Shown here: piece by piece, positions 15,092 through 29,667 of the stretch | Numbering within the stretch: position 1 is the first letter of the stretch | Layout: each line of letters begins with the position of its first letter | Assembly: GCA_017387505.1 (NCBI GenBank) | Contig: JAFOFB010000021.1 | Span: forward strand, 1 to 40,104 | DNA length: 40,104 nt | Reading direction: 5' to 3' | DNA from: Methanocorpusculum sp. | GTDB lineage: Archaea > Halobacteriota > Methanomicrobia > Methanomicrobiales > Methanocorpusculaceae | Position numbers and translations under genes: made by a program | The notes under the pieces: generated by a model | The model's input: the letters and a program-made list of their open reading frames with translations, nothing else | Told to the model about the DNA's origin: nothing | The model's database searches: none

Positions 15092-16342
15092 ATGATTTGG
15101 CAGCCGGTAGTAGCTGATGAGTGGAAAGCACAACGCCGCGGTTCCTTAAGCGATGTAAAAGACATCGTATCAGGCATCATCGAAGATGTCAGAACAAACG
15201 GAGATGCCGCACTTTTCGCCCTCACCGAAAAATTCGATAAGCAGAAACTCGAAACCCTCAAAATAACACAGGAACAGATTGATGCTGCATATGACATGGT
15301 CGACCCCGAACTTGTCCAGGCATTAATCGAAGCCGAAGCAAGAATCACCGCCTTCCATGAACTCCAGAAACCAAAAACCCTCTGGCTTGAAGAGATGGAG
15401 CCTGGAATCACTCTTGGTGTCAAAACAACCCCGCTTGACAGAATAGGTGCATATATCCCGGGAGGCCGTGCCGCATATCCCTCCACCGTTCTGATGACAA
15501 CCGTTGCAGCCCGCGTTGCAGGAGTCAAAGAAATCGTACTCTGCACCCCGCCTCCGGCAAACCCGCTGACATTAGTCGCACTCGATATCGCAGGAGTTAC
15601 AGAAGCATACCAGATTGGAGGGGCACAGGCTGTTGCCGCCATGGCTCTTGGAACTGAGACCATCCGCCCGGTTCAGAAGATTGTAGGTCCTGGAAATGTC
15701 TTTGTCACTCAGGCAAAGATGATGCTTCGCGAGTATGCAGAGATTGACTTCCCGGCAGGACCTAGCGAGGTTGGAATTGTCGCAGACGCCGGAGCAAACC
15801 CGGCATTCGTTGCCGCAGAGGTTCTTGCACAGGCAGAACACGATCCAAACTCTGCATGTGTGCTCGTTACTGACAGCGCAGAACTCGCTGAAGCTGTCGG
15901 ACGCGAGATTGATGCACAGAGTGCTGAAGCTCCGCGTGCAGAGATTATGGAAAAGTCTCTCTCCCACTCCGGATACATCGTAACCGAAACCTTAGAGGAA
16001 GCACTCGCTGTAATCGACGACATCGCACCGGAACACCTCTGCATTATGACTGCAGACCCGCTGACCTCTCTTTCCCACATCCACAACGCAGGTTCAATCT
16101 TTGTAGGTCCCTACACTCCTGTTGCATGCGGTGATTATGCATCCGGAACAAACCATGTCTTACCGACCGCAGGATATGCAAAGAGCTATTCGGCACTTGA
16201 TGTCGGGCACTTCATGAAGAGATCTCAGGTCCAGATGGTCTCTAAAGCAGGGCTTGAAGTAATCGGGGATACAATTGAGACTCTCGCGCAGGCTGAAGGT
16301 CTTTTCGCGCACGCAAATTCCGTAAAACTGCGCAGAAAATAA
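15092..16342 (+). CDS. hisD: Histidinol dehydrogenase
   Basis: 416 residues. Zinc enzyme that oxidises L-histidinol twice with NAD+ to give histidine, the last step of the pathway. Diagnostic blocks: YIPGGRAAYPSTVLM, KIVGPGNVFVTQAKM, DFPAGPSEV, EVLAQAEHDPNSACVLVT (Gln and His zinc ligands), IAPEHLCIM (catalytic Glu-His) and GDYASGTNHVLPT. The ATG has no ribosome site and lies about 30 bases after a TATA-like stretch (TATATCTAAA near 15057), so a leaderless message is likely. No other his gene is adjacent, as is common in archaea. Confidence 0.96.
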   Translation: MIWQPVVADEWKAQRRGSLSDVKDIVSGIIEDVRTNGDAALFALTEKFDKQKLETLKITQEQIDAAYDMVDPELVQALIEAEARITAFHELQKPKTLWLEEMEPGITLGVKTTPLDRIGAYIPGGRAAYPSTVLMTTVAARVAGVKEIVLCTPPPANPLTLVALDIAGVTEAYQIGGAQAVAAMALGTETIRPVQKIVGPGNVFVTQAKMMLREYAEIDFPAGPSEVGIVADAGANPAFVAAEVLAQAEHDPNSACVLVTDSAELAEAVGREIDAQSAEAPRAEIMEKSLSHSGYIVTETLEEALAVIDDIAPEHLCIMTADPLTSLSHIHNAGSIFVGPYTPVACGDYASGTNHVLPTAGYAKSYSALDVGHFMKRSQVQMVSKAGLEVIGDTIETLAQAEGLFAHANSVKLRRK

Positions 16343-16487
16343 CCATTTATTTATTTTTTGCAAAAGATACCAATTGGTACTGCTATTTTGTCTGTGAATT
16401 ATTCTGTTATTTTTTGTTGAATTCTCATGAAAAATCATTATAATTTCGTCACTCAGAAGGATTGATAAACGTGGTCCCTTTATACCG

Positions 16488-16498
16488 CATACTTTAAA
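16488..16498 (+). promoter_or_regulatory. TATA-like box of fdhC
   Basis: CTTTAAATAC at 16489-16498 implies a transcript start near 16520 and a leader of about 55 bases containing a small GGATT...AATCC stem (16533-16550 area) before the ribosome site GAGGTG at 16564-16569. Confidence 0.5.
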
Positions 16499-16575
16499 TA
16501 CATTCTGAACGTAGTATTTCGTAACGCATCTTGGATTGGGGAAGAATCCCTGGTTCGGGTTGTGAGGTGTTATTT

Positions 16576-17433
16576 ATGGTCACATTTAGTCCAGCGCAGG
16601 TTTGCGTTAAAATCGGAAATGCCGGAAAAGGCAAGTGCGGTCTTGCACCGTTTAACATGCTTGTCCGTGCATTCCTCGCAGGTGCATACATTGCAATGGG
16701 TGCAGCCCTTGCAACTGTTGGTTCCACCGGTGTTGCAGCAGTATTCGGTGCAGGTATCGGACAGTTTGTAACCGGTGCCCTTTTCCCGATCGGTTTAGTT
16801 CTCGTTGTCTTAACCGGTGCAGAGCTTTTTACCGGCGATGCAATGTTTGCCCCTATGTCAATGCTTCAGGGACAGATTGGTGTTGGTAAGCTTATTTATC
16901 TCTGGATTGTTGTATACATTGGAAACCTTATTGGTTCTCTCTTTATGGCATTCCTTGTGTCCTTTGGTCCGTATGTCTCCTTCGATGCAGCAGGAGCAGC
17001 AGTCATTACTGCATTCGGAACCCGTGCAATCCAGATTGCAACCGCAAAAGTCTCCTATGTCGGAGCAATGGGAATTCTTTCCTGCTTCTTCAAGGGTATC
17101 CTTTGTAACTGGCTTGTCTGTCTTGCAATCTTCCTCGCACTCGCTGCAGATGAAGTAATCTCCAAGATTGTTGCAATCTGGTTCCCGATTATGGCCTTCG
17201 TTGCAACCGGATTTGAACACTGTGTTGCAAACATGTACTTCATCCCGGCAGGTATTATCACTAACATGATTACCGGCGGAGATGCAATTGCAGGCCTTGA
17301 CTGGGTTGGCATGTGGACTAACAACATTATCTGGGCAACCCTCGGAAACATTGTTGGTGCAGTCATCTTCATGGCAATCGTCTACTACTTCTGCTACAAG
17401 TCCGAGATTTGTGCACTCTGCGAAGTAAAATAA
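16576..17433 (+). CDS. fdhC: Formate/nitrite transporter family protein, probable formate channel FdhC
   Basis: 285 residues with six membrane helices in the aquaporin-like FNT fold. Family marks include LVRAFLAGAYIAMGAALAT in the first helix, LVVLTGAELFTGD in the second (the FNT signature) and GFEHCVANMYFIP with the central histidine. Formate is imported for formate dehydrogenase and methanogenesis. The ATG at 16576 follows GAGGTG by 6 bases; the frame opens further upstream to 16531 without a better start. No fdhA/fdhB follows, so the channel is transcribed alone and ends in a strong hairpin. Confidence 0.9.
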   Translation: MVTFSPAQVCVKIGNAGKGKCGLAPFNMLVRAFLAGAYIAMGAALATVGSTGVAAVFGAGIGQFVTGALFPIGLVLVVLTGAELFTGDAMFAPMSMLQGQIGVGKLIYLWIVVYIGNLIGSLFMAFLVSFGPYVSFDAAGAAVITAFGTRAIQIATAKVSYVGAMGILSCFFKGILCNWLVCLAIFLALAADEVISKIVAIWFPIMAFVATGFEHCVANMYFIPAGIITNMITGGDAIAGLDWVGMWTNNIIWATLGNIVGAVIFMAIVYYFCYKSEICALCEVK

Positions 17434-17465
17434 GGTGATACAGTAATGGGGGAATCCCCCCACCT
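17433..17465 (+). terminator. Nested hairpin after fdhC
   Basis: Inner stem TGGGGG / CCCCCA (17447-17452 and 17457-17462) with the 4-base loop AATC; outer AGGTG / CACCT (17433-17437 and 17461-17465) is an alternative pairing. T-rich sequence follows from 17475. It lies directly after the fdhC stop. Confidence 0.6.
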
Positions 17466-17584
17466 CATATTCATCTTGTTTCTGTTTTCAGGTTCTTTTT
17501 CTGTAATCTTCTTTTACTGTTTTTTGCTATTTCCGCAGATGAACCTACTTGTATTTATTGTATCAAATCCAATATTTATGCCAC

Positions 17585-19408
17585 ATGTCTGAAAGCTACT
17601 CATGTGGTACATCCGATAAACCATTACTCGGCTGTACCGTAGGACAACTCTTAAACAGCATCGCGGCTAAATTCCCGGACAACGATGCACTAGTAGCCTT
17701 TCAGCAGAACCCGTACGGAAAAGCTGTTCTGAATGCTTCCATCTATACCAGTGCACATGAGGCACTGGTGTCTGATGAGCCGAACAGCTACCGTGAGCCG
17801 TATACGATTGCTCCTGCATCGCTTTCGACTCCAGTCCTTCGTTATACCTGGAAGGAGTTCTTAAACGAGGTCAACAACCTTGCAAAAGGTCTGATGATGC
17901 TTGGTGTCGAACGCGGTATGCGTGTTGCTATCTGGGCTTTGAACTATGCTGAATGGATACTTGTACAGTTTGCAACGGCCAAAATCGGTGCCGTAATGGT
18001 AAACATTAACCCGGCCTACCGTACGTTCGAGCTCGAGTATGCACTAAAGCAGTCCGAAGTTGATACTTTAATTCTTCAGGGCAAGTTCAAGACTTCCGAT
18101 TATGTCGGTATGTTCTATGAGGCATGCCCTGAGGCATTCGAGTGCCGCCCCGGAGGTATTCGTTCCGAGAAGTTCCCGTACTTGAGAAACGTTGTTTTCA
18201 TGGGCGAAATCATCTACAACGGTATGTACCGCTGGAGCGAGATGATTGAGATGGGTCGTATGATTTCCGATTCGGAGCTTCAGGACCGTGAGGATTCTGT
18301 GGAGTTTGATGATGCATTAAACATCCAGTACACTTCCGGTACTACTGGTTATCCGAAGGGAGTTACTCTGTCTCACCACTCTGTGTTAAACAATGGTTTG
18401 ATCATTGGTGACGGTATGGCCTTTACGGAGAATGATAAGCTCTGTATTCCGGTTCCGTTCTACCACTGCTTCGGTATGGTTTTATCGAATATGGCTTGTG
18501 TGACTCACGGTACTACTATGGTTATTCCATGTCCGGCATTCGATGCAGAGGCTGTTCTCTATGCAATCGAGGCTGAGAAGTGTACTGCAGTACACGGGGT
18601 TCCGACGATGTTCATTGCTGAGCTTGAGCATCCAAACTTCGATAAATATGATCTTTCATCTCTGAGAACCGGAATTATGGCTGGTTCTCCGTGTCCGATT
18701 GAGAAGATGCGTGAGGTTTCCGAGCGTATGTATATGAGAGATATCGTTATCGTTTATGGTCAGACTGAGACTGCACCGGGTGTTACGATGTCTACGACTT
18801 CCGATTCCTTAGAGCTTCGTGTGTCAACTGTCGGCCGTGCTTTCCCGCACACTGAGATTAAGATTATCGATCCGAAGACCGGAAGAATTGTTCCATACGG
18901 TGAGACCGGTGAGATTTGTGCACGCGGTTATATGACTATGAAGGGTTACTATAACAATCCGCAGGCAACCCGCATGGTCATTGATGAGAATCACTGGCTG
19001 CACTCCGGTGACCTTGGTACTATGGATAAGGATGGATACGTCAGAATGGTCGGCCGCTTAAAGGAGATGGTCATTCGCGGCGGAGAGAATCTGTATCCGA
19101 GAGAGATTGAGGAGTTCTTACATCAGCACCCGAAGATTTCGGATGTGTACGTAATTGGTGTGCCGGATGTTAAGTACGGTGAGGAGCTTTGTGCCTGGGT
19201 GAAGGTTGAGGAGGGTTCGACTCTTACTGAGGAGGAGATTCGTTCTTTCTGTGACGGTAAGATTGCCCGTATGAAGATTCCGCGGTACTACCGTTTCTGT
19301 GATACTTTCCCGATGACTGTGACGGGTAAGATTCAGAAAGGCGAGATGCAGAAGGTTTCTATTGCCGAGCTCGGTTTAGAGAAGGCAGCAGAGATTAAGA
19401 CTGCATAA
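17585..19408 (+). CDS. AMP-forming acyl-CoA synthetase
   Basis: 607 residues. Activates a carboxylic acid with ATP to the acyl-AMP and then the CoA thioester. The AMP-binding signature YTSGTTGYPKG is at about 249-259, followed by VYGQTETAPG (A5), the hinge and A8 block GRLKEMVIRGGENLYPREIE (~489-508), and the A10 lysine in TVTGKIQKGEMQ near the end. The layout is that of medium-chain/fatty-acyl CoA synthetases (FadD3/AcsM-like), not acetyl-CoA synthetase, which is longer. Start ATG 17585, about 20 bases after a TATA-like stretch; an open frame goes back to 17549 without support. In a methanogen the substrate may be a branched-chain or 2-methylbutyrate-type acid taken from the environment; this is inference. 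Confidence 0.9.
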   Translation: MSESYSCGTSDKPLLGCTVGQLLNSIAAKFPDNDALVAFQQNPYGKAVLNASIYTSAHEALVSDEPNSYREPYTIAPASLSTPVLRYTWKEFLNEVNNLAKGLMMLGVERGMRVAIWALNYAEWILVQFATAKIGAVMVNINPAYRTFELEYALKQSEVDTLILQGKFKTSDYVGMFYEACPEAFECRPGGIRSEKFPYLRNVVFMGEIIYNGMYRWSEMIEMGRMISDSELQDREDSVEFDDALNIQYTSGTTGYPKGVTLSHHSVLNNGLIIGDGMAFTENDKLCIPVPFYHCFGMVLSNMACVTHGTTMVIPCPAFDAEAVLYAIEAEKCTAVHGVPTMFIAELEHPNFDKYDLSSLRTGIMAGSPCPIEKMREVSERMYMRDIVIVYGQTETAPGVTMSTTSDSLELRVSTVGRAFPHTEIKIIDPKTGRIVPYGETGEICARGYMTMKGYYNNPQATRMVIDENHWLHSGDLGTMDKDGYVRMVGRLKEMVIRGGENLYPREIEEFLHQHPKISDVYVIGVPDVKYGEELCAWVKVEEGSTLTEEEIRSFCDGKIARMKIPRYYRFCDTFPMTVTGKIQKGEMQKVSIAELGLEKAAEIKTA

Positions 19409-19428
19409 TCTTTTTTTATTTTGGGTTG

Positions 19429-19456
19429 TGTCGAAGGTTTTGTGATTTATCGACAT
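19429..19456. repeat. 28-bp palindromic repeat, copy 1
   Basis: Starts TGTCGAA and ends ATCGACAT, near-palindromic. Most diverged of four copies in the middle (GGTTTTGTGATTT). Confidence 0.65.
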
Positions 19457-19500
19457 GTCATCTTTGCTGTGTTCGATGTACGTACATATGTTGGGTGATG

Positions 19501-19528
19501 TGTCTAATATTTTTGAAATTTTCGACAT
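19501..19528. repeat. 28-bp palindromic repeat, copy 2
   Basis: Starts TGTCTAA and ends GAAATTTTCGACAT. Its start is 72 bases after copy 1; the flank TTGGGTGATG is related to flanks of the next copy, so copies 1-3 form a loose ~72-bp tandem array. Confidence 0.7.
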
Positions 19529-19573
19529 ATGGTTGGTGACATGTTTAATCCCGTATACATATGATAGGTGTCG

Positions 19574-19601
19574 TGTCGAATATTTTTGAAATTTTCGACA
19601 T
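19574..19601. repeat. 28-bp palindromic repeat, copy 3
   Basis: Starts TGTCGAATATTTTT and ends GAAATTTTCGACAT; differs from copy 2 at one base. Start is 73 bases after copy 2. It is about 90 bases downstream of the fic stop codon. Confidence 0.7.
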
Positions 19602-19694
19602 GTTGTGGGTGGCATGTTCAAGCCGTATATCTCTGAGGATTACTATTCCTACCCTGCCGGTCGCTGTTTCTTTGTCTGATTTTTTCGTCTCGCT

Positions 19695-20771
19695 TTATTC
19701 CTTTAGAATCTGGTAGAGGGTGGTATTTATGTAGATTACTTCACGGGATATTTTCTGTGCAGTGAGGATGCCAATCTTTTCGAGTTCTTTTAAGTACTTC
19801 ATTGCGGTCTGTCTGTTTCCCATTCCGGCATCGACGAGATATTTTCCTTTACAGTAGGGCTGCAGGAATATCAGGTCAATCAGTTCATGTGAGTAGATGT
19901 GGTTCGGGAGTTTTTCCCGGCAGAAGTTTCGGGTGTCTTCCATAAGCTGGTAGATTGCATGGACTTTTGTGTAGGTCCAGTCGGCGGTTTGCTCTACTGC
20001 ATCGAGGATGAAACAAATCCATTCTTCGAAGTTGTTTTCTGCTGTTGCTTCTCTGAGGAGTTTGTAGTATTCGGTTTTGTTTTGGATGATGTACCGGCTT
20101 AAGTAGAGTACGGGGATATCCAGAAGGTTGTTTGCGATGAGGTAGAGGATATTGAGGATTCTGCCGGTTCTGCCGTTTCCGTCAGTGAATGGGTGGATTG
20201 CTTCGAACTGGTAGTGAATGAGGGCAAGACGGATGAGCGGGTCCGGTTCTGTTCCGTTATTGATATACTCTTCGAGCTGTGCCATGAGTGCCTGGAGTAC
20301 ATACGGGTCGTTTGGCGGGGTGTAGATGCGGGTCATTCTGTTTCCGATGTATACTGTAACGTCTCTCCGGCTCATGTCTGTTTCGAGGATGGTGCTGCAG
20401 ATTGTTTCCAGCAGTTCTTCGTTGATGCTATGCTGTTCTTTTAATGCGGCATATCCGGTATAGAGTGCCTTTCGGTAGTTGAGAACTTCTTTTTCAGCTG
20501 GATTTGCTGTTTCTGTGTTTGTGGCGAGTACCCGGTAGAGGGAGTCCTGGGTGGTGAAGATGTTTTCTATTTCAGAGCTGGATGCTGCTTCCAGGAGGGG
20601 GATGGAGCTGATGAGGATGTCGGGGTTTGGGATGAGTCTGCATGCTTCGCGGAGGCGTGCGAGGGATTTGTTTGCGGCGTTGCAGGCTTTCCATATCTTC
20701 GGGGTTTCCAGGTTGATGTCAGGGGGAAGGAAGGGCAGGGAGTTATAGGGGACGTCGGGGGCAAATGTCAT
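19695..20771 (-). CDS. Fic-domain protein with C-terminal winged helix (class II)
   Basis: 358 residues. Fic enzymes transfer AMP (or related groups) to target-protein hydroxyls. The catalytic loop HPFTDGNGRTGR is complete at residues 193-204. The inhibitory-helix motif S-x-x-x-E-N is seen at residues 65-70 (SSEIEN), before the Fic core, which marks class II and self-inhibition by the glutamate. Residues ~285-355 form a winged helix (GNRQTAMKYLKELEKIGIL), so the protein probably binds DNA. Its best target is its own region: a 28-bp palindrome sits 35 bases before the start codon and three more lie beyond the stop. No antitoxin gene is adjacent. Confidence 0.92.
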   Translation of the reverse strand: MTFAPDVPYNSLPFLPPDINLETPKIWKACNAANKSLARLREACRLIPNPDILISSIPLLEAASSSEIENIFTTQDSLYRVLATNTETANPAEKEVLNYRKALYTGYAALKEQHSINEELLETICSTILETDMSRRDVTVYIGNRMTRIYTPPNDPYVLQALMAQLEEYINNGTEPDPLIRLALIHYQFEAIHPFTDGNGRTGRILNILYLIANNLLDIPVLYLSRYIIQNKTEYYKLLREATAENNFEEWICFILDAVEQTADWTYTKVHAIYQLMEDTRNFCREKLPNHIYSHELIDLIFLQPYCKGKYLVDAGMGNRQTAMKYLKELEKIGILTAQKISREVIYINTTLYQILKE

Positions 20772-20805
20772 TATTCTACTAATACTCTTTTCTCCTTTAT
20801 CTATC

Positions 20806-20833
20806 TGTCGAAGATTTCAGAAATTTTCGACAT
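20806..20833. repeat. 28-bp palindromic repeat, copy 4 (upstream of fic)
   Basis: Starts TGTCGAAGATTTC and ends GAAATTTTCGACAT. It lies 35 bases upstream of the fic ATG, where it would cover or abut the promoter. Best palindrome of the four. Confidence 0.7.
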
Positions 20834-21171: not shown

Positions 21172-22296
21172 ATGTGTGTGATGGCAGCGAAAGACGGTGT
21201 TCTGATTAGAAGGCGGCTGAGGATTTTTGCGGCAGCGGTAGCTCTGGTGCTTCTCTGTGCGGTGTGTGTCGGCGCGGTGAGCGGAGAAGCCTGGGATAAT
21301 CATAAGGATACATCATGGGGTTCGGATTATGGCACCTCCTCAGTATTTTATATTTATGATGCTGGAGATTTAGCTCAGTTTTCAGGCATGGTGAACAGCG
21401 GGAAGGATTTCGCTGAGAGGACGATTTATCTTAATGCTGATATTGATTTAGCGGACTATAGGTGGACATCAATTGGACGTGCGGGTTCTTATCTCAATTA
21501 CCCGTTTAGAGGGACTTTTAATGGACAGGGATACACTATATCTAACATAAAGCAACTTATTGGTTAGTATGCTGCTCCTGGGGGATTATTTGGTTATGTT
21601 GAGAGCGGAACGGTAACCAATGTGAAGTTGCAGAATGTTGAAATTACCGTACGGTGTGGTGGGATATATGTTGGTTCTCTTGTTGCTGTCCTGAAAGATG
21701 GAAGTGTAACTAACTGTGATATTTCCGGAGTTAATATAATGGAACCAGTTGATACTTCGAGTGAGTTTTCATATTCTACTTATGAGGTTACTGTTGATGA
21801 TGTAATTGGTGAAATCCGAGGTACAAATGAGTTTATTTACGGAATTACTGCTACAAAAATAGATATTTCTAAGGATGAATTTAATCATTTTAATGTCCCC
21901 GTAAACTATAATAATAGTGCAAATCATCAGCCGCGGGGACTTAGATATGAGGTTACTATCCCTGCCCAACTGCCAATCGGGGAGGATGGAGTTGGTTCTG
22001 CATCACTCTCCGTTTCCAGTTTACGGATTCCTTCCTCTACTGTGGTGAAGGTCTATGTGCATGGGGATTTCCGTCTTGAACATCAGGCAGATTCTGCGAT
22101 AACGCTGCGCTATATTCTGAAGAATGGTGAAGGTACTGTACTTGAAAACGACGATTGCGTCGGAGAGTTTACTATGGATGATTATTATAATTATAATCAG
22201 ATTTGGCTGACGGCGAGAGTTGTTGATCAGGCTCCCTACTCCGGAAGTTATTCGGATACCCTGACCTTTACCTACGGACTGGAGGCGATAGCATGA
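21172..22296 (+). pseudogene. Secreted surface protein with one in-frame TAG (GLUG-like plus beta-sandwich)
   Basis: One reading frame of 375 codons, broken only by TAG at 21565-21567. The N-terminus is a signal peptide (basic RRRLRIF, then a hydrophobic run to ~residue 33). Next come DAGDLAQFSGMVNSGKDF, YLNADIDLADYRWTSIG and GTFNGQGYTISNI, typical of GLUG-repeat surface proteins that build beta-helices. After the stop it continues YAAPGGLFGYVESGTVTNVKL. The C-terminal third begins YEVTIPAQLPI and ends YSGSYSDTLTFTYGLEAIA. It is a paralogue of 24836-26182. Starts ATG 21172 or 21181. Either a recent nonsense mutation or readthrough; because the frame is otherwise intact the break is young. Confidence 0.8.
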
Positions 22297-22334
22297 AAAC
22301 AGAACCATCTTTTCAGAAAATGGAGAGTTGAAAA

Positions 22335-22910
22335 ATGGCATATGATGAATTACAGTTTGAATCAACATACGAGAAAAAGAAATCCGGTAAAAAGAAGTGG
22401 ATTGTCCTGTTTCTCCTTCTGCTGCTGATAGCTGCAGCAGGAGTGTTTGTTATCTCCGGGGGCCTGACGCTCATATTCCCAGGTCTTGCCCACGGTTCTG
22501 GTTCTTCACCACTGGGCGGTGGGCTGGTGATTGACCCAAACGCAGGAGACTATGTAGCTCCTGAAGCTCCCAAACAAGAGCAGGGAGTTGCTATCCCCGG
22601 CTGGGGTTCAATGACTATTCCTGCAAACACGCAGGTACTTGACATGGTGGATTTCCACAATCCAATTGCAAATGACGGATTGTATTATCTGACATTCAAG
22701 TTCTGTCTGCTGAATGCAAACGGTGAGATTTCTGAGGTTCTCTGGGAATCGCAGGCAGTTCCTCCTGGAAAACACATCCAGAAGATTACGATGTCCCGCG
22801 GACTTCCTGCCGGAACGTATGACGCAGTCGTTCATGTACAGCCGTATCGCATGTCGGACCAGAGTCCGACAAACAGTGCGAATATGAGAACAACACTCAT
22901 TGTAAAATGA
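22335..22910 (+). CDS. Membrane-anchored surface protein of the island cluster
   Basis: 191 residues. A basic, cytoplasmic N-terminus (KKKSGKKK) is followed by one membrane helix (~22-44) and a Gly/Pro-rich linker. The outer domain (~85-191) starts IPGWGSMTIPANTQVLDMVDFHN and ends LPAGTYDAVVHVQPY...MRTTLIVK. This domain order and signature resemble short anchored proteins found beside large adhesin-like proteins in gut Clostridia; I recognise the pattern but know no function for it. RBS GGAGAG precedes ATG 22335. It is the intact second gene of the cluster, 38 bases after the first, and probably supports export or assembly of the neighbours. Confidence 0.75.
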   Translation: MAYDELQFESTYEKKKSGKKKWIVLFLLLLLIAAAGVFVISGGLTLIFPGLAHGSGSSPLGGGLVIDPNAGDYVAPEAPKQEQGVAIPGWGSMTIPANTQVLDMVDFHNPIANDGLYYLTFKFCLLNANGEISEVLWESQAVPPGKHIQKITMSRGLPAGTYDAVVHVQPYRMSDQSPTNSANMRTTLIVK

Positions 22911-22938
22911 GGTTAATTAAAAAATGAGGTAAAATTAT

Positions 22939-23532
22939 ATGAAGAAATTCCTTGTATTAATCGCATGTTTATTATTGGCAGTATTTGCAACAGGATCTGT
23001 TGGTGCTGATGATGATACTACCGATAATGCACTTTCAGACTCTACATAAGTCATCTATAACATTAACAGTGTTTACACGTTAATTATTCCAAGTAAATTT
23101 ACTTTTGGTGGTACTGATGAGTTCTTACCAATTGAACTTATGACAAAGTCTTCGAAACTTGGAGAATATCAACAGATTAATATTACAGTTAACAGCTCTC
23201 AGTTTGATGAAAATCAACCAGATGGTACATGTGGTAAGGGGCTCTGGACATTAATTCATAAGAATGGTCTTCAAGTTGAGAGTAAATTGTATTATCATAT
23301 TCATACTTATGATGATGTACCTATAAAGAATGGTTCGTCAGTTTTTACAGCTACTGGGAGGGAGGTTGCTGAGCAACTCAAAATGACAGATATTGGCACT
23401 GCTAATTTGAGTATTGAACAGAATTTACATTTTAAATTAAATGATACTGAACCCGGAACGGCAGGATCATTTAAAGATCTTCTCATCTTTACAATTAAAC
23501 TTGAGGATGTCCCATCTGACCAAGCTAATTAA
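22939..23532 (+). pseudogene. Secreted beta-sandwich protein with one in-frame TAA
   Basis: A frame of 198 codons from ATG 22939 (GAGGT about 10 bases before) to TAA 23532, interrupted only by TAA at 23047-23049. Signal peptide: MKKFLVLIACLLLAVFATG, cleaved near VGA-DD. After the stop the frame reads VIYNINSVYTLIIPSKFTFGG, a beta-sandwich start like the YTVTIP motif of its neighbours, and ends GTAGSFKDLLIFTIKLE, comparable to the GSYSDTLTFT motif. The stop is only about 37 codons in, just after the signal peptide. It looks like a pilin-sized repeating subunit, but that role is inference. Its AT content is visibly higher than that of the core genes. Confidence 0.75.
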
Positions 23533-23668
23533 AATAGAATAGAGGATTAACGGGCTTTCCCTAAATTCACTATTCTTATTTATCCTTGTGGCATGATTGA
23601 ATGCTGGATAATTAACTGATAATCCAATCTAAATTCTGGGGAATCTATCCAAAACATACAGAGATACT

Positions 23669-24649
23669 ATGCGTAGTTTCTTATCAGCAGCAAGAGGTAT
23701 TATTCTCATACTCATTACATTTTCACTTCTTGCTCTTCCAGCAGCGGCTGTATCTGCGGTGGATAATCAGGATGACACAATAATTTCAATAAACATAAAC
23801 GAAGTTGAAATTATTGTTGATGAGACAATCAAAGGTCTTGGTTATCTCGTTAATGGTAAGGAGTACTCCGGTCCTGTGTGTGTATTTTCGGGTGATAATG
23901 TTGTAGTCAGTCTCAAAACGTATCCATACCATGGTACATTGTCTTCAGTAGTTGAAGGAAGTGCTGACCAGATATTGGGTGATTATTCGGTTCTGCTCTA
24001 CAACATCAGAAGCACTCACGTTACGCTTAGACTAACTCTGAGCGGTGTGCCGTCCAATCCGGTTATTCCGCCAACACCAGATAATCCGCCATCAGGTGAT
24101 GGGCCGGATTATCCGAATGTCCCTGATTATCCAGACACACCGGATACTCCGTCTAAACCAGAAAACCCGCCAACAGACGAGCCTGGAACAGATGAGCCAA
24201 CAAAGCCGGACAACCCGCCTGTTAATCCAGACACCCCAGGCTCTGACGAACCGGGTTCAGACGACCCGTACCGTCCAATCCTCCCGCCCGCAGGATCTGT
24301 CTACAACATCGCAGGATTCATCCCTATTGGTGCAGGAGCACTTCTGCTGTTCCTTGTATTCTTCTGGAGACGCAAGGTTTACAGAATCCTGAAATCTCAT
24401 GCAAAGAAGCACGGAGAAAAGCCTGAGAAGGAACATCTCAAAGAGATTGCAGACGCAATTATCAAGCTCGTCAGAGATGAAGGCAGGTATCCTGAGTGGA
24501 AGAAAAACAATGATGTCATGAGACGTCTTGGAGTTGGCATTTGTGAACTCTTAGACGAAATGAATTATCCAAAGATTGTCCCGCGTGAAGCTCTTGCAAC
24601 TGAGATTCTCAAAGCTGCACGCGGAAGAATTAACAGACACCGGCTCTAA
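23669..24649 (+). CDS. Surface protein with proline-rich stalk, membrane helix and cytoplasmic tail
   Basis: 326 residues. Signal peptide (1-30), an outer domain of ~95 residues rich in beta strands, a stalk at ~130-208 made of Pro, Asp, Glu and Thr (PDNPPSGDGPDYPN-type units), one membrane helix (~213-233) ending FFWRRK, and a basic cytoplasmic tail of ~90 residues. The tail (EIADAIIKLVRDEGRYPEWKKNN, then ILKAARGRINRHRL) is helical and matches no family I know. It is exactly the part that is duplicated at 27285. The stalk would lift the outer domain through the S-layer, and the tail could signal inward. Intact, unlike its neighbours. Confidence 0.8.
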   Translation: MRSFLSAARGIILILITFSLLALPAAAVSAVDNQDDTIISININEVEIIVDETIKGLGYLVNGKEYSGPVCVFSGDNVVVSLKTYPYHGTLSSVVEGSADQILGDYSVLLYNIRSTHVTLRLTLSGVPSNPVIPPTPDNPPSGDGPDYPNVPDYPDTPDTPSKPENPPTDEPGTDEPTKPDNPPVNPDTPGSDEPGSDDPYRPILPPAGSVYNIAGFIPIGAGALLLFLVFFWRRKVYRILKSHAKKHGEKPEKEHLKEIADAIIKLVRDEGRYPEWKKNNDVMRRLGVGICELLDEMNYPKIVPREALATEILKAARGRINRHRL

Positions 24650-24667
24650 GCCTGGTGTTCTTTTTTT
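24637..24667 (+). terminator. Terminator hairpin spanning the stop codon
   Basis: ACACC-GGCT / AGCC-GGTGT with loop CTA and one bulged T, followed by TTCTTTTTTT. The stop codon TAA (24647-24649) is part of the loop and right arm. The same hairpin and T-run recur after the duplicate at 27285-27377. Confidence 0.65.
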
Positions 24668-24835
24668 CTCTGCTGCTATTTTCCCTCTCAGTGCAATCAC
24701 TGAATACAAATCCTTTACCGCAAAAACGTTGCTTTAATTTACGTTCAGGATTAATATATTACTCATTATATCACAGCAGTGGTAAGGGATGCTCTGCAGT
24801 TCTATCAGGCAGCCTCCCGTATCAGAGAGGTTTTC

Positions 24836-26182
24836 ATGCACATCAGTACAGATACAAAATGCAGCATGCACCAGATGATTTTGTTGACAGCCTTTGCTCT
24901 CGTGCTGCTGAGTGCGGTGTGTGTCGGATCTGCTGGTGCATGGTCTGCAGATACATCCTGGGGTTTGGATTATGCTTCCTCCTCAGTATTTTATATTAAT
25001 GATGCCGGAGATCTGGCACAGTTTGCATCCATGGTGAACAGCGGTAATAATTTCACCGGAAATACGGTTTATCTAAATGCTGATATTGATTTACAGAATC
25101 AGGTTTGGACACCGATTGGCAACTCTGAATCAAAACCGTTTTCAGGAACATTTAACGGTCAGGGACATACGATTGATAATGTCTATATTTTCTACTCACA
25201 AGGTGCTGTAGCAGGTCTTTTTGGATATGTTACCAACGGTCACATCCGTGATTTGGATATTGTAAACATTGTCTTTGATAATGATGTGAATGCAAAGAAT
25301 TCCTATCTTGGTTCATTTGCTGGGCATCTTCATGCCGGTACTCTTACGAACTGCTCTGTTCTTCAAAAAGCTGAGTTCAATACTCAGGGCAATGGTAGAG
25401 ACCACTATACTATTGGTGGTTTGATTGGGAAGATTACTGATAGTGTTGCTGTCACGGCAGATAATCTCGGGAATTATTTAATAGGTGACTGTTTTGTTCG
25501 TGTTGCTAATGTGAATTATAATAAACCATGGGGTCTTCTGGTTGGCAGTCCGATAATTGGTGTTCTTAGCAGCAAACCCGGCGGCACTGATGATACTGGG
25601 GGAACCACTGATCCGTCATCTGCAACCTATGTCGTTACTGTCTATAAAATGAGGTCTGATGGTATTAATTATGATAAAGTTACGTCAGATAAATATGTTG
25701 TTTTAACCGGTACTGAGGTTGTAGCAGAGTACACAATTCCGGAAGGATATTTCCTTAATGATGAAAAAAGTTGTATCGCTGGTACGGTAACCATTGGTAA
25801 TATCTTGAACCTCTAAATCTGGTATGATCTTATTTCGTATAATGTCACCATCCCGTTATCTCTGAACATATTGGAAGATATAAATACGAAAACGATGTCT
25901 ATTTCTGTTTCCGATCTGCGAATTCCTGCATCATCTGCAGTTAAGGTGTATGTGGAAGGTGATTTCCTGCTTGAACATCAGACATCATCTGGAATAACAT
26001 TGGCCTATGTTCTGAAAAATGAGGCGGGTGAGACTCTGTTATCTGGTCATCAGGTCGGCCAGTTTACTATGGCAGATTACCATACCCTCTCGCTGACTGC
26101 AACAGTTGTTGATCGGGCTTCCTATTCCGGAAGATATTCTGACACTTTGACCTTTACGTACAGACTGGAGACGATTGCATGA
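24836..26182 (+). pseudogene. Secreted surface protein with one in-frame TAA, paralogue of 21172-22296
   Basis: 449 codons from ATG 24836 (GAGAGG ribosome site just before) to TGA 26182, broken only by TAA at 25814-25816. Signal helix MILLTAFALVLLSAVCVGSA, then TSWGLDYASSSVFYINDAGD, nearly the same as the first gene. GLUG-like units follow (GTFNGQGHTIDNVYI, GLFGYVTNGHIRDLDI, GGLIGKITDS), a Gly/Thr linker, a domain YVVTVYKMRSDGINYDKV, and after the stop the beta-sandwich NVTIPLSL...YSGRYSDTLTFTYRLE. The C-terminal ~100 residues are the most conserved part between the two paralogues. The break separates the beta-helix from this C-terminal domain, which may be the attachment domain. Confidence 0.8.
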
Positions 26183-26301: not shown

Positions 26302-27042
26302 TATGACTACTTTCCAGAGTTTGGATTGAATCAGGCATATCTTAACTGTTGTTCCAAAATTGGCGATTGTTTATCTGAAGTTGGAAAACTCATTGATTGG
26401 TCTTATTTCCGCCCAATTCTGGAAACCATGTGCTCTAACCAATCCTCCAAAGGTGGTCATCCAAATGTTGATGTTATTCTTATGTTCAAAATTCAACTTC
26501 TTGAAGTCTGGTATAACCTCTCTGATATTGCAGTAGAACGCGAGATTTATGACTGCCTTTCTTTCTGGCATTTCCTTGGATGTCCGGATTCCATTCATGA
26601 TAACTCCACAATTTGGTTATTCCGTGAACGTATGTCTAAAACCAGAGTTGACAAACTTGTTCGGGCAGAGTTCCAGAGACAGCTTGATTTACACAATCTC
26701 AAGATTGAGAAAGGAATGATTTAGGATGCTACTTCATCTATGCTAATCAGGGTCATTGTACAAGGGATACACCAAGAGGTAGAGAGGCGAAAACAAAAAG
26801 AAATAAAGACGGGAAAATCATGTCCAAAAATGGGAAATCACATTACGGATATAAGCTGCACACAATAATGGATACTGATTATGACTTAATTCGAAGGATT
26901 GATACAACAACTGCAAATGTACATGACAGCCATGTAGATTTATCAGAAGAAGGAGAGGTTGTTTACCGGGACAGAGGATACCAGCGTTTGGAAACAGTAT
27001 TCAGATATTCACCAAGACAAAGAGAAATCATCTTCTTTACAT
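26302..27042 (+). pseudogene. Decayed IS5-family-like transposase
   Basis: The first part (to 26724) reads RPILETMCSNQSSKGGHPN, DVILMFKIQLLEVWYNLSDI, CLSFWHFLG and DNSTIWLFRERM, the usual N-terminal and first catalytic regions of IS5-group DDE transposases. A TAG at 26722-26724 and a one-base deletion about ten bases later break the frame; with the frame restored it continues DATFIYANQGHCTRDTPRGR. From 26820 a new frame reads GKSHYGYKLHTIMDTDYDLIRRIDTTTANVHDSHV and VVYRDRGYQ, the second catalytic region, then loses similarity. Neither a start codon nor terminal inverted repeats could be placed. The element is dead and marks an old insertion beside the surface cluster. Confidence 0.85.
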
Positions 27043-27104
27043 GAAGAAAATCAGATTTTGAAAGTTTGGATAAATAATGGATTGATGAAGTACTCAGAAC
27101 AATA

Positions 27105-27284
27105 TCATACATCACCAAATACCTCATCAAAAGAACAGTATTTCTCAGTCTTTCGAATCGTATTCAAATCAGCATCAAGCTTCTCAACATCCAATCCTGC
27201 CTCCTCAGGAATGCTGTCATCCAACGGGATAAGATTGTTTATTAGAGAAACTGACAGCGGCTCCCGGCTGATATTGTATAAATC
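27105..27284 (-). pseudogene. C-terminal fragment of an unknown protein
   Basis: A 59-codon minus-strand frame, open from a TAA just above 27284 to TGA 27105-27107, encodes DLYNISREPLSVSLINN, then IPEEAGLDVEKLDADL and ends KYCSFDEVFGDV. Codon use is protein-like and the segment has no start codon. It is probably the tail of a gene cut by rearrangement next to the transposase. Family unknown. Confidence 0.35.
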
Positions 27285-27391
27285 TTAGACAAAATGAATT
27301 ACCAAAAAGCCGTACTGCGTGGAACAGTCGTTGCAAAGATTATCAAAGCAGCACGTGGAAGAATAAACAGACACCGGCTCTAAGCCTGGTG
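27285..27391 (+). pseudogene. Duplicate of the 3' end of the 23669-24649 gene
   Basis: The frame reads DKMNYQKAVLRGTVVAK and then IIKAARGRINRHRL-stop; it aligns without gaps over 31 codons to the end of the stalk protein (DEMNYPKIVPREALATE...). The last 23 bases including the stop codon and the terminator left arm are identical. It has no start and no upstream part of the gene. Confidence 0.8.
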
Positions 27392-27485
27392 ACTTTTTTT
27401 TCTTTTCAGGTGCTGTTTTTTATCTTGGATATATTTAGAAAAAATGTCTTCAATATCAATCCCTGAAAACATAATTCAGGAACAA

Positions 27486-27552
27486 ATGTTTTGTAAACAT
27501 GATTTCAAAACATTTGAGTTTCAAAAGTTTTGAAAGTATGTTTACAAAACAT
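27486..27552. repeat. 67-bp palindrome
   Basis: Outer arms ATGTTTTGTAAACAT (27486-27500) and ATGTTTACAAAACAT (27538-27552) are perfect reverse complements over 15 bases. After two mismatches the arms pair for nine more (TTTCAAAAC with GTTTTGAAA), leaving a loop of about 15 bases that itself contains TTTCAAAA. It lies in the gap between the surface-gene debris and the J-domain gene. Confidence 0.7.
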
Positions 27553-27613
27553 GGAAGACCCACGAATGCCTTTTTAGCCTTAATATGGTTATTATCCCTA
27601 TTAAAAAAGAAAA

Positions 27614-27802
27614 TCAGTACAGAAGCTGAAGGAACTTAAATGCAGCCATCTCCTCTGCATACTCTTTTCTAAAAGCCGGATTCTTATCCGGGTGGTATCT
27701 GTCGCGAAGTTCTCTGTATGCAAGTGATACTTCACTAAATGTTGCTGACTCATCAACGCCTAAAATCTCATAGGCACGTTCTTTCGTCATTGGTTCAACC
27801 AT
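27614..27802 (-). CDS. Stand-alone J-domain protein
   Basis: 62 residues making up only a J domain: ERAYEILGVDESATFSEVSLAYRELRDRYHPDKNP with the HPD triad at about 37-39, then helix IV (AEEMAAFKFLQLLY), where the protein ends. Such proteins recruit DnaK to particular places or clients. The terminal FKFLQLLY resembles the usual F-x-x-I-N-x-A-Y ending of J domains cut short, so it could also be a trimmed DnaJ-like protein. Start ATG 27802 or 27790. Confidence 0.75.
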   Translation of the reverse strand: MVEPMTKERAYEILGVDESATFSEVSLAYRELRDRYHPDKNPAFRKEYAEEMAAFKFLQLLY

Positions 27803-27926
27803 ACAAATACATACAGCACCAAATCAGAAATACCTTCCTTTTCAGACACACATAAAAACATCCTCATCTCATTTTCAAGTCACAGCACATATATAGGTAG
27901 TAAAACAAAGATTTACCTTATACCAA

Positions 27927-27960
27927 TACGCAGTCTGCCAGTGGTGTGGCGGCCTGCGTA
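27927..27960 (+). promoter_or_regulatory. Leader hairpin abutting the ribosome site of putP
   Basis: TACGCAG (27927-27933) pairs with CTGCGTA (27954-27960); inside, GCC (27937-27939) pairs with GGC (27948-27950), leaving symmetrical three-base internal loops and an 8-base apical loop. The stem ends exactly where the ribosome site AAGGAGAG (27959-27966) starts, so folding would affect access by ribosomes. Confidence 0.55.
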
Positions 27961-27974
27961 AGGAGAGTATTACT

Positions 27975-29474
27975 GTGGAAACAGGAACATTAGTTGGAAT
28001 TATAGCCGCATTTGTCATATACTTTGCAGTGATGATATATGCGGGTATCTACTACATGAAAAAGAACCAGACCTCCAGTGATTACATCTTAGGAGGCAGA
28101 AAACTTGGCAAATTCGTCTCGGCAATGTCTGCTGAGGCATCCGACATGAGCGGATGGCTTCTCTTAGGACTTCCGGGAGTTGCATACTTAACCGGTCTTT
28201 CCTCTGCAGGATGGACAGCAATCGGTCTTGCAATCGGTACTTACCTCAACTGGAAGTTCATTGCAAAACGTCTTCGCGTCTACACCCACAAAGCAAAAGA
28301 CTCTATCACAATCCCTGAGTTCTTCAAGAACCGTTTTGGAGACAAGAAAGCATACACATCGACCATCGCATCGATTTTCATTGTAATCTTCTTCTTCGTC
28401 TACACCTCCTCCCAGTTCGCAGCAGGAGGAAAGTTATTCCACAACATCTTTGGAATTGACTACAGCGTTGCAATGTTTGTTGGAGCAATCATCGTTGTTG
28501 CATACACATTCTTAGGCGGATTCCGTGCAGTATGTCTGACTGACACAATCCAGGCAGTCCTGATGTTCTTCGCACTTCTGCTTATCCCGATTGTTGGACT
28601 CTTCATGATTGGTGACGGCGGTGCAAGCCTTGCCTCCCTCGACCCGAACATGTTCTCACTCTTCCACGACCCGACAACCGGTGAATTCATCTCTGTCTTC
28701 GTCATTGTCTCCGGTCTTGCATGGGGATTCGGTTACTTCGGTCAGCCGCACATTCTCCCGAGATTCATGGGTATCGAAAACCCTGAGGAAATTCCGCAGG
28801 CACGCCGCATTGCTATGGTTTGGGTCGTCATCTCCCTTGCAGCAGCAATCTTCATCGGACTTGTCGGACAGGTCTTCTTCAGCACCCCGCTTGCAGACTC
28901 TGAAACTGTCTTCATCGACATGACCGGAGGAGTACTTGGAGCACTTCCATTCCTTGCAGGAATTGTCTACTGTGGTATCCTTGGAGCAATCATGAGCACT
29001 GCATCTTCCCAGATGCTTGCAGCATCTTCTTCTATTGCACAGGATCTTTTCAAGACCTTAATCAAAAAGGATGCAGACGACAAACTTCTCTTCACCGTCT
29101 CCAGAATCAGCGTTTTACTCGTAGCAGCAGCAGCATTCACTATCGCTCTTGACCCGAACAGCTCTGTCTTTGGAATCGTCTCCTTTGCATGGGCAGGATT
29201 CGGATGTGCATTCGGTTCCGTCATCTTAGTCGGTCTCTTCTGGAAGCGCATGAACTGGCAGGGTGCTCTCGCAGGTATTATCGTTGGAGGAATCACCACA
29301 TTTGTCTGGTACTACCTTGTAACCCCAATCTTCCCTCTCTACGAAATGGTTCCGGGTGTAATCTTATCACTTATTGCAATCTTCGTAGTCACCAAGCTCA
29401 CATCTGAGCCGGACAAGGCAGTCCAGGACACCTTTGACGCATACAAAGCCGAAATCGGCACTAAGAGAACATAA
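27975..29474 (+). CDS. putP: Sodium/solute symporter of the PutP type
   Basis: 499 residues, about 13 membrane helices, SSS family. PutP imports proline with Na+. PutP-like features: SDYILGGRKLGKFVSAMSAEASDMSGWLLLGLPGVAY in the second helix region (with the Na+-site residues A-S-D-M-S-G-W), FLGGFRAVCLTDTIQA, WGFGYFGQPHILPRFMG and ISTASSQML-type helix 8 (IMSTASSQMLAASSSIAQDL). Starts at GTG 27975 after AAGGAGAG. In a methanogen proline could serve as an osmolyte or amino-acid source. A TATA-like box CATATATAG (27887-27895) precedes the structured leader. Confidence 0.92.
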   Translation: METGTLVGIIAAFVIYFAVMIYAGIYYMKKNQTSSDYILGGRKLGKFVSAMSAEASDMSGWLLLGLPGVAYLTGLSSAGWTAIGLAIGTYLNWKFIAKRLRVYTHKAKDSITIPEFFKNRFGDKKAYTSTIASIFIVIFFFVYTSSQFAAGGKLFHNIFGIDYSVAMFVGAIIVVAYTFLGGFRAVCLTDTIQAVLMFFALLLIPIVGLFMIGDGGASLASLDPNMFSLFHDPTTGEFISVFVIVSGLAWGFGYFGQPHILPRFMGIENPEEIPQARRIAMVWVVISLAAAIFIGLVGQVFFSTPLADSETVFIDMTGGVLGALPFLAGIVYCGILGAIMSTASSQMLAASSSIAQDLFKTLIKKDADDKLLFTVSRISVLLVAAAAFTIALDPNSSVFGIVSFAWAGFGCAFGSVILVGLFWKRMNWQGALAGIIVGGITTFVWYYLVTPIFPLYEMVPGVILSLIAIFVVTKLTSEPDKAVQDTFDAYKAEIGTKRT

Positions 29475-29667
29475 AGTTCTCTTTTCAATTTTTACTCGTT
29501 TATTCTCTGGCGTAATTGTGCGCTGCTCTTTTCTCATTCTTTGAAAACAAAAAATCCGCCCCTTTTCTTTCGTAAAATAATATAGAACTCCCTCTCCTCT
29601 CTCCACGAAAACCCTACATTAAAATATTCATAACACAGAATAATATACGCCGTGAGAGGAGGGTTGG
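29475..29667. promoter_or_regulatory. Promoter region of the ATP synthase operon
   Basis: Two TATA-like stretches are visible: AATAATATAG (29576-29585) and AATAATATAC (29639-29648). The strong ribosome site GAGGAGGG (29655-29662) precedes the first gene. Which box is used cannot be decided. Confidence 0.45.

Follow-up and report, generated by a model that had tools for sequence, protein, structure and literature searches.

It is already known that bacterial adhesin genes pass to gut methanogens. In the excerpts of the published accounts considered here, the adhesin-like proteins of Methanobrevibacter smithii are laterally acquired and Firmicutes are the main source of transferred genes (PMC3445992), and adhesin-like proteins are among the genes held to be transferred in M. 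ruminantium (PMC10658910). In the Thermococcales, the VARTIG module is described, again in the excerpt considered, as hypervariable and shaped by recombination, with Ig-domain proteins in which the C-terminal Ig domain of one large protein varies (PMC8416519). Here we describe a gene set in a 40,104-nucleotide stretch of DNA from Methanocorpusculum sp. (assembly GCA_017387505.1, contig JAFOFB010000021.1, positions 1 to 40,104; hereafter the window), consisting of a GLUG-like passenger gene followed by genes for a membrane-anchored protein (ANCH), a small secreted subunit (SECR) and a stalked membrane protein (STALK). Like the Methanobrevibacter proteins, these are adhesin-type surface genes that a gut methanogen would have gained; unlike them, they appear to have been transferred in a common gene order and include a subunit that stands alone, a partner anchored in the membrane and a stalk with a tail. 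Like VARTIG, this is an archaeal hypervariable module that recombination may have shaped, but here the passenger interior, SECR and the STALK ectodomain vary between constant ends, the C-terminal sandwich is kept among differing passengers, the genus is Methanocorpusculum and the kin are Clostridia. Titles and abstract openings in the literature searched gave no description of this gene set; the parts considered of a paper on host-associated Methanocorpusculum (PMC10506414) name no such set, and those of PMC10035134 make no mention of adhesin, GLUG, surface or Clostridi, and report phosphonate genes that were perhaps transferred and an enrichment of bacterial-origin genes in marsupial lineages.

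Two further likenesses are to known protein families. Weak SCPU matches of SECR, and the union of an adhesin part with a sandwich domain in one protein, recall the pilins of chaperone-usher systems; unlike those, the cluster has no usher among the proteins scanned and its partner protein is membrane-tethered, and the cells here are single-membrane. The STALK tail is homologous to part of HsdR (PF11867) over about 80 residues; unlike HsdR, STALK has no helicase or nuclease part, and the domain lies behind a predicted transmembrane span.

We consider it probable that the set is a surface-display operon that passed from Clostridia to Methanocorpusculum and is now decaying in this genome. A scan of 84,980 species genomes with an alignment of archaeal ANCH gave 75 pattern matches and 30 confirmed loci, nine in Methanocorpusculum and 21 in Clostridia; since a match must contain either of two short peptide patterns, the scan is restricted to close kin. 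Thirteen of the 21 Clostridia titles bear the sample name 'Lapin', which we take to be rabbit, and three name sheep rectum or roe-deer gut sites. The window ANCH is up to 53% identical to Clostridia ANCH (37-58% among archaeal copies), and in the class of one such Clostridia genome ANCH was found at E 1e-6 in 17 of 391 genomes, two of them already in the larger scan. Among archaea its range is narrow. STALK and ANCH were each searched in 150 genomes of the order: STALK matches occur in six, all of the same genus and the window's own included, and ANCH in five, of which four are strong (same genus, own included) and one is weak (G049, E 1e-3). Within 392 genomes of the phylum, the window's own was the only one with ANCH at E 1e-5, the other three set-bearing genomes evidently lying outside that sample. 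In these samples the strong ANCH homologues all belong to one genus, a partial answer to the refuting case set by the preliminary description, namely close homologues across free-living Methanomicrobiales. In a tree of 50 ANCH rows, all nine from archaea group together as a single clade (96/95; none of 500 shuffles was as low), nested within a 29-row group (100/98) that holds 20 Clostridia rows, with 21 further rows from Clostridia genomes outside; the tree does not single out the Clostridia group nearest to the archaeal clade. One archaeal clade, a narrow archaeal range and a wide Clostridia range together favour a single entry from Clostridia into Methanocorpusculum, followed by duplication there. 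The preliminary description of this DNA, made from its letters alone, had suspected both a kinship with gut Clostridia and a gain by transfer, and the ANCH loci, gene order and tree support both.

Gene order points the same way. It was counted at ten Methanocorpusculum loci (the window plus nine, L044/L046 and L068/L069 being near-copies in two genomes) and for 44 Clostridia ANCH genes, at most two per locus, with near-copies included (for example L057-L064) and with re-fetched duplicates (L071-L081, L084-L087, L108) and ANCH matches above E 1e-6 left out. SECR lies behind ANCH on the same strand at 10/10 Methanocorpusculum and 35/44 Clostridia loci, although it is weak in L098, one of the 35 (domain E 0.2), and split in L047. 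The STALK N-terminal domain follows downstream in seven of ten and eight of 44, respectively (E 1e-2, a weak match, in L067; E 4e-7 to 5e-7 in L052 and L054), a count limited by the room of at most 1.5 kb that most loci of the class search offered, and a sandwich domain ends directly upstream in 7/10 and 7/44. The complete order passenger-ANCH-SECR-STALK is found in Methanocorpusculum and also in Clostridia (L052, L054, L055, the passenger being cut by the locus end in each); the preliminary description had proposed to look for all five of its gene types at one locus in archaea and Firmicutes.

Within the genus, open sets in that order occur in three other genomes, G094, G098 and G114 (loci L029, L030 and L031; L030 is in G114, and L031 has two passengers in tandem), two of which are from goat caecum (RGIG1678) and goat colon (RGIG2143), the third being isolate SIG11. 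These three genomes supply the full-length STALK kin; of the remaining STALK matches, that in G138 is to a tail and that in G048 is HsdR. G094 and G098 hold further ANCH loci (L032-L037), of which L033, L036 and L037 have passengers of 1424 to 1829 residues and short, tail-less STALKs, while at L034 and L035 SECR forms the front of an 805-806-residue GLUG-bearing protein and no STALK was found, and L032 is broken; in L044/L046, too, the SECR domain leads a protein with GLUG. Next to the giant-passenger sets (L036 8620-9369, L037 3832-4368) are proteins that look, by eye, like the starts of phage tail fibres, and behind them come what appear by eye to be transposase-like genes.

The preliminary description had proposed a five-gene cell-surface cluster on one strand. 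All of its named gene types do stand in one plus-strand run at 21172-26182, in the order GLUG-like passenger gene A, ANCH, SECR, STALK and GLUG-like passenger gene B, but they are not five intact genes. We read the locus as one four-gene set plus both ends of a second, tandem set split by a decayed insertion sequence (IS); passenger B is taken as the front of this second set because a broken IS and a second STALK 3' end come after it (Table 1). Three of the five genes, passenger A, SECR and passenger B, have exactly one internal in-frame stop each and no frameshift; but for that stop, the frames run open for 375, 198 and 448 codons, counting the final one (SECR from its ATG). The frames of ANCH and STALK are intact. 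Three single nonsense changes most plainly suggest recent decay, and the window copy looks to be decaying. A reassigned stop codon is unlikely, since TAG is found as well as TAA and since a GLUG gene of divergent sequence at L032 in G098 seems to run in two frames. A chimeric contig is ruled out: the contig is archaeal, and both its flanks are collinear with G114, at 87.6% and 90.3%. It is contig C21 of a 1.43-Mb draft that is 83.5% complete (labelled G000). The other proposals of the preliminary description on single genes fared well: the two GLUG-type genes share their C-terminal domain (71% nucleotide and 62% amino acid identity), the single-span anchored protein was confirmed, and the small secreted sandwich gene is there, though with its in-frame TAA.

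The sets combine constant ends with an almost wholly different interior. Nucleotide identities were taken per pair, with one shuffle per pair as control. The leader and passenger signal peptide are 0.91-0.92 identical (three pairs, without G098), and the stalk, membrane span and tail 0.83-0.93 between species, like the flanking genes (0.886 and 0.923 between the window and G114); the coding part of the 3' bookend is 84-88% identical between the window and its relatives. ANCH is intermediate, at 0.64-0.78. The passenger interior, in contrast, is at 0.61-0.64 against 0.62-0.63 for shuffled sequence (three pairs, without G098), SECR at 0.59-0.68 against 0.59-0.63, and the STALK ectodomain at 0.56-0.61 against 0.59-0.64. 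The exception is the STALK ectodomain of G114 and G094, at 0.98, which at two sites in two species is a sign of recent exchange. The diverged parts can still be aligned as protein, STALK ectodomains at 20-36% and SECR at 48% (G114) and 24% (G098) to the G094 copy. A comparable pattern is seen in four Clostridia (L049, L050, L051, L053), in which an upstream integrase gene (0.83-0.94), ANCH (0.91-0.94), the SECR signal peptide (0.91-0.985; boundary set by hand at 22 codons) and, in three of them, STALK (0.88-0.95) are conserved, whereas mature SECR is at 0.59-0.64 (shuffled 0.59-0.63; 32-41% as protein). In each of these four draft genomes one SECR and no silent copy was found at E 0.01, so that the variation looks like exchange from strain to strain rather than switching within the cell. 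Constant ends around predicted outward parts that differ almost wholly point to an exchanged, fast-changing cell surface. In the same four loci a tyrosine recombinase gene of 372-373 residues (Pfam-checked in L049) stands directly before ANCH-SECR; no inverted repeat common to the four loci, as an invertible promoter would have, was found between integrase and ANCH.

The stalked membrane protein had been described as bearing an unknown cytoplasmic tail. A cytoplasmic side is what we also predict, but the tail is not unknown, as it matches Pfam T1RH-like_C (PF11867) at 29.0 bits against a cut-off of 26.8. L029 (28.4) and L031 (31.3) are above the cut-off as well, with matches again in G000, G094 and G098; the G138 tail is below it (20.7) and the G114 tail went unreported. 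A profile of the tail finds five of six HsdR C-termini of the genus at E below 0.01 (best 1.5e-12, with six sequences; the sixth at 0.4), and hhalign gives 94% for tail against HsdR C-terminus. This is not a full-length HsdR: the 326-residue reading frame matches model positions 247-322 of 329 and no other Pfam model at E 0.1. The tail's best match among solved structures, a lectin neck (E 1.7e-6), was discarded because it reflects repeats, no single domain scoring better than i-E 4. Hydropathy shows a signal segment and one span ahead of a basic tail, and the tail is therefore predicted to lie inside. By eye, some Clostridia STALKs end in PNTG or QTGD followed by hydrophobic and basic residues.

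Among the other products, hhalign places SECR and the C-termini of the passengers in one domain (99.2%, E 2e-19). Against GLUG (PF07581, cut-off 20.5 bits), passenger B scores 20.8 in its part before the stop and passenger A 13.6 in its part after the stop. ANCH and SECR reach no curated cut-off in the Pfam or NCBIfam results. The best NCBIfam match of SECR, JUQZ_fam_ocin (5/26 rows, best E 2.6e-5), was dropped, as in the row inspected it scores 18.2 bits against a cut-off of 40 and covers the signal peptide. Searches of solved structures gave none for ANCH at E 1 (two N-terminal matches at E 10), three for the passenger C-terminus (best E 0.57) and 15 for SECR at E 1, most limited to the first 45 positions, the signal peptide; beyond it SECR matched intimin (E 0.031) and an SCPU protein (E 0.36). 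Hydropathy predicts one span near the N-terminus of ANCH.

From these data we infer an arrangement of adhesin display, ANCH docking, STALK anchoring and diversification by exchange. The passenger would be adhesin-like, its N-terminal part facing outward and its C-terminal sandwich plugging into an array or fibre of SECR sandwiches; membrane-tethered ANCH may dock or guide the sandwiches of SECR and passenger, and STALK would anchor the assembly. In some Clostridia STALK would end in a sortase-like signal, in place of which the archaeon, which has no peptidoglycan, would use a membrane span and an HsdR-type cytoplasmic domain. Strains could trade the exposed interior by homologous recombination within the constant leader and tail, which selection by phages, neighbours or the host would be expected to bring about.

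Other explanations overlap with this one and with each other. A degenerate relic, in which surface genes were acquired once and now decay without function in this lineage, is possible though clearly less probable than a surface-display operon: the in-frame stops, the decayed IS and the second set reduced to its ends fit it, as do L032 in G098 (a SECR with one TAA and a divergent GLUG gene seemingly continued in another frame), a SECR-like piece with one TAA in G134 and the solitary tail in G138, but sets are open in G094, G114 and G098, and dN/dS is of purifying pattern for pairs of ANCH (0.17-0.30) and of the tail (0.23-0.43). We think it unlikely that the proteins form a donor-strand fibre, with SECR and the passenger C-terminus as SCPU-type pilin domains, ANCH as a membrane-tethered, chaperone-like partner and the passenger as a two-domain tip adhesin. 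SCPU is indeed the best Pfam lead for SECR (5/26 rows at E up to 1, best 1.4e-4; two of ten rows scanned singly, at 16.3 and 12.1 bits), all three matches inspected one by one extend to the final position of the model, PapD-like similarity appears in one ANCH row out of 27 (E 0.13), and the passenger has the layout of adhesin plus sandwich; however, those three matches, at 12.1-16.4 bits, are below the cut-off of 22.4, and no usher or chaperone model was found at E 0.1 among the cluster proteins scanned.

A wider reading is quite improbable as a whole, namely that stand-alone sandwich subunits, two-domain adhesins, a membrane-tethered guide, a stalk anchor and a hypervariable exposed part jointly make up a new type of surface fibre in two domains of life, with an HsdR-derived base that in the archaeon would link surface contact to restriction or other defence. 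Least probable of all is that the STALK tail acts as a sensor which, on contact at the surface, for example when a phage adsorbs, recruits cytoplasmic proteins of restriction-modification or of other kinds. The HsdR-type tail does stand behind a predicted span in all four genomes with full STALK genes, but no HsdR with T1RH-like_C was found in tail-bearing G094, G114 and G138 (drafts 92%, 79% and 79% complete, searched for this HsdR type and not for others or for HsdM), and a tail that merely retains the protein would explain the same facts.

Several observations weigh against a transferred, exchange-driven surface-display operon. With three of five genes interrupted, the window copy may not work, and the set-bearing archaeal genomes are drafts, 79-92% complete. 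Nine of the 44 Clostridia ANCH genes have no SECR behind them (L082 had just 305 bases left, and L101, L106 and L107 have the sandwich domain upstream instead), a second Clostridia group is without SECR hypervariability (0.89-0.95 in nucleotides), and the single SECR of each of the four genomes above gives no support to switching from silent copies. A domain common to all five proteins is not supported: the passenger C-termini and SECR share one, whereas for ANCH (hhalign 28.6%) and the STALK ectodomain (48.2%) the comparisons did not establish membership in that sandwich family. In Clostridia STALKs the sortase-like end was seen by eye, with no Pfam anchor match, and hydropathy gives a C-terminal span in the L055 STALK and none at that threshold in that of L049. 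The ANCH tree is rooted at its midpoint, so the direction of transfer rests on range and nesting.

Table 1. Features of the gene set and its surroundings in the window (nucleotide positions; '.' where no strand applies)
Feature	Position	Strand	Remarks
Two palindromes TGTCKAATATTTTTGAAATTTTCGACA	19501-19527, 19574-19600	.	73 nt apart
Fic protein with SoFic-like C-terminal domain	19695..20771	-	Pfam; 83% identical Fic beside the cluster in G098
Palindrome TGTCGAAGATTTCAGAAATTTTCGACA	20806..20832	.	lies at the cluster's 5' junction, 35 nt before the Fic start codon
5' bookend: non-coding leader and passenger signal-peptide codons	20848..21284	+	91-92% nucleotide identity to G114, G094 (90.7-90.9% in a second comparison)
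Passenger A: signal peptide, GLUG-like part, C-terminal sandwich (about 21931-22293)	21172..22296	+	TAG 21565-21567
ANCH: predicted transmembrane span aa 23-41 near N-terminus, conserved ectodomain	22335..22910	+	intact
SECR: secreted stand-alone sandwich subunit	22939..23532	+	TAA 23047-23049
STALK: signal peptide, variable ectodomain, Pro/Asp/Glu-rich stalk, predicted span aa 214-232, HsdR-type C-terminal tail	23669..24649	+	intact
3' bookend: stalk, span, tail, following DNA	24058..24671	+	82-88% nucleotide identity to G094, G114, G098 (G098 from 24227)
Passenger B, taken as the front of another set, now decayed	24839..26182	+	TAA 25814-25816
Decayed IS element; outer limits approximate (by eye)	26326..27200	+	DUF772 transposase piece 26326-26724 (Pfam)
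Remnant, second STALK 3' end	27256..27406	+	80% nucleotide identity to first copy, 127 columns
Inverted repeat 3' of the set	27486..27552	.	similar repeats after the tail in L029, L030

The set occupies a site between an acyl-CoA synthetase and a symporter gene (both identified by eye), of which contig C7 of G098 (L159) gives the empty form. L159 is collinear with window positions 15530-19472 and 27603-29493 and also with L030 1-2295 and 10265-12000; the two matches are separated by 24-35 unaligned bases, with one palindrome at the junction. G114 is occupied at the window's site with a different interior, and the insertion there (L030 7370-10175) also carries two other proteins, an AAA_14/DUF4143 ATPase and one of Schlafen-AlbA_2 type, a content reminiscent of a variable hotspot. 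The tail-bearing sets of G098 and G094 are located at other sites, and at the G094 site G138 has palindromes directly beside its solitary tail.

With up to three mismatches the palindrome has three sites in the draft genome, all of them here, against an expectation of 0.01 for the window, and with up to two mismatches TGTCGAANATTTNNNAAATNTTCGACA occurs in 6/25 genomes of the genus. In G000, G114 and G138 it occupies the set's 5' junction, and it is found at a Fic gene beside the set in G000 and G098 or without ANCH in G070 and G074, its distance to the Fic start being 35 nt in G000 and G098, 12 or 39 nt in G074 (depending on the choice of start codon) and 112 nt in G070. From these positions we read the palindrome as a likely operator of Fic that may also mark the insertion site; the link of the Fic gene itself to the cluster is no more than suggestive. 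The palindrome is absent from G094, which has a set, and in G114 and G138 it occurs with no Fic gene in the stretch read. Palindromes upstream of SoFic-type Fic genes, a possible Fic operator, often have a spacing of 72-73 nt (41 nt in G138), and were placed at window 19501-20832, L031 1544-2110, L160 2784, and L161 2960 and 3032. A second kind of inverted repeat lies beyond the 3' ends in L029 (7521-7584) and L030 (7216-7322) as in the window; Rfam gave nothing credible, its miRNA matches at the inverted repeat being far under the gathering scores. Among viral contigs no relative was confirmed (27 pattern matches, 0 confirmed), and among plasmids there was none. Carriage by phage was rejected: three 'phage' records match at 31-37% identity, and the two inspected are unverified, unannotated sequences, perhaps bacterial contigs, with weak ANCH relatives at L168 6001-6345 and L167 5593-5832.

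The apparent novelty lies in a set of surface genes transferred together, whose hypervariable parts have sharp boundaries in archaea as well as in some Clostridia. With it one could examine concretely how methanogens attach to partners or evade their viruses, and for what reason a surface anchor carries a domain of a restriction enzyme on its inner side.

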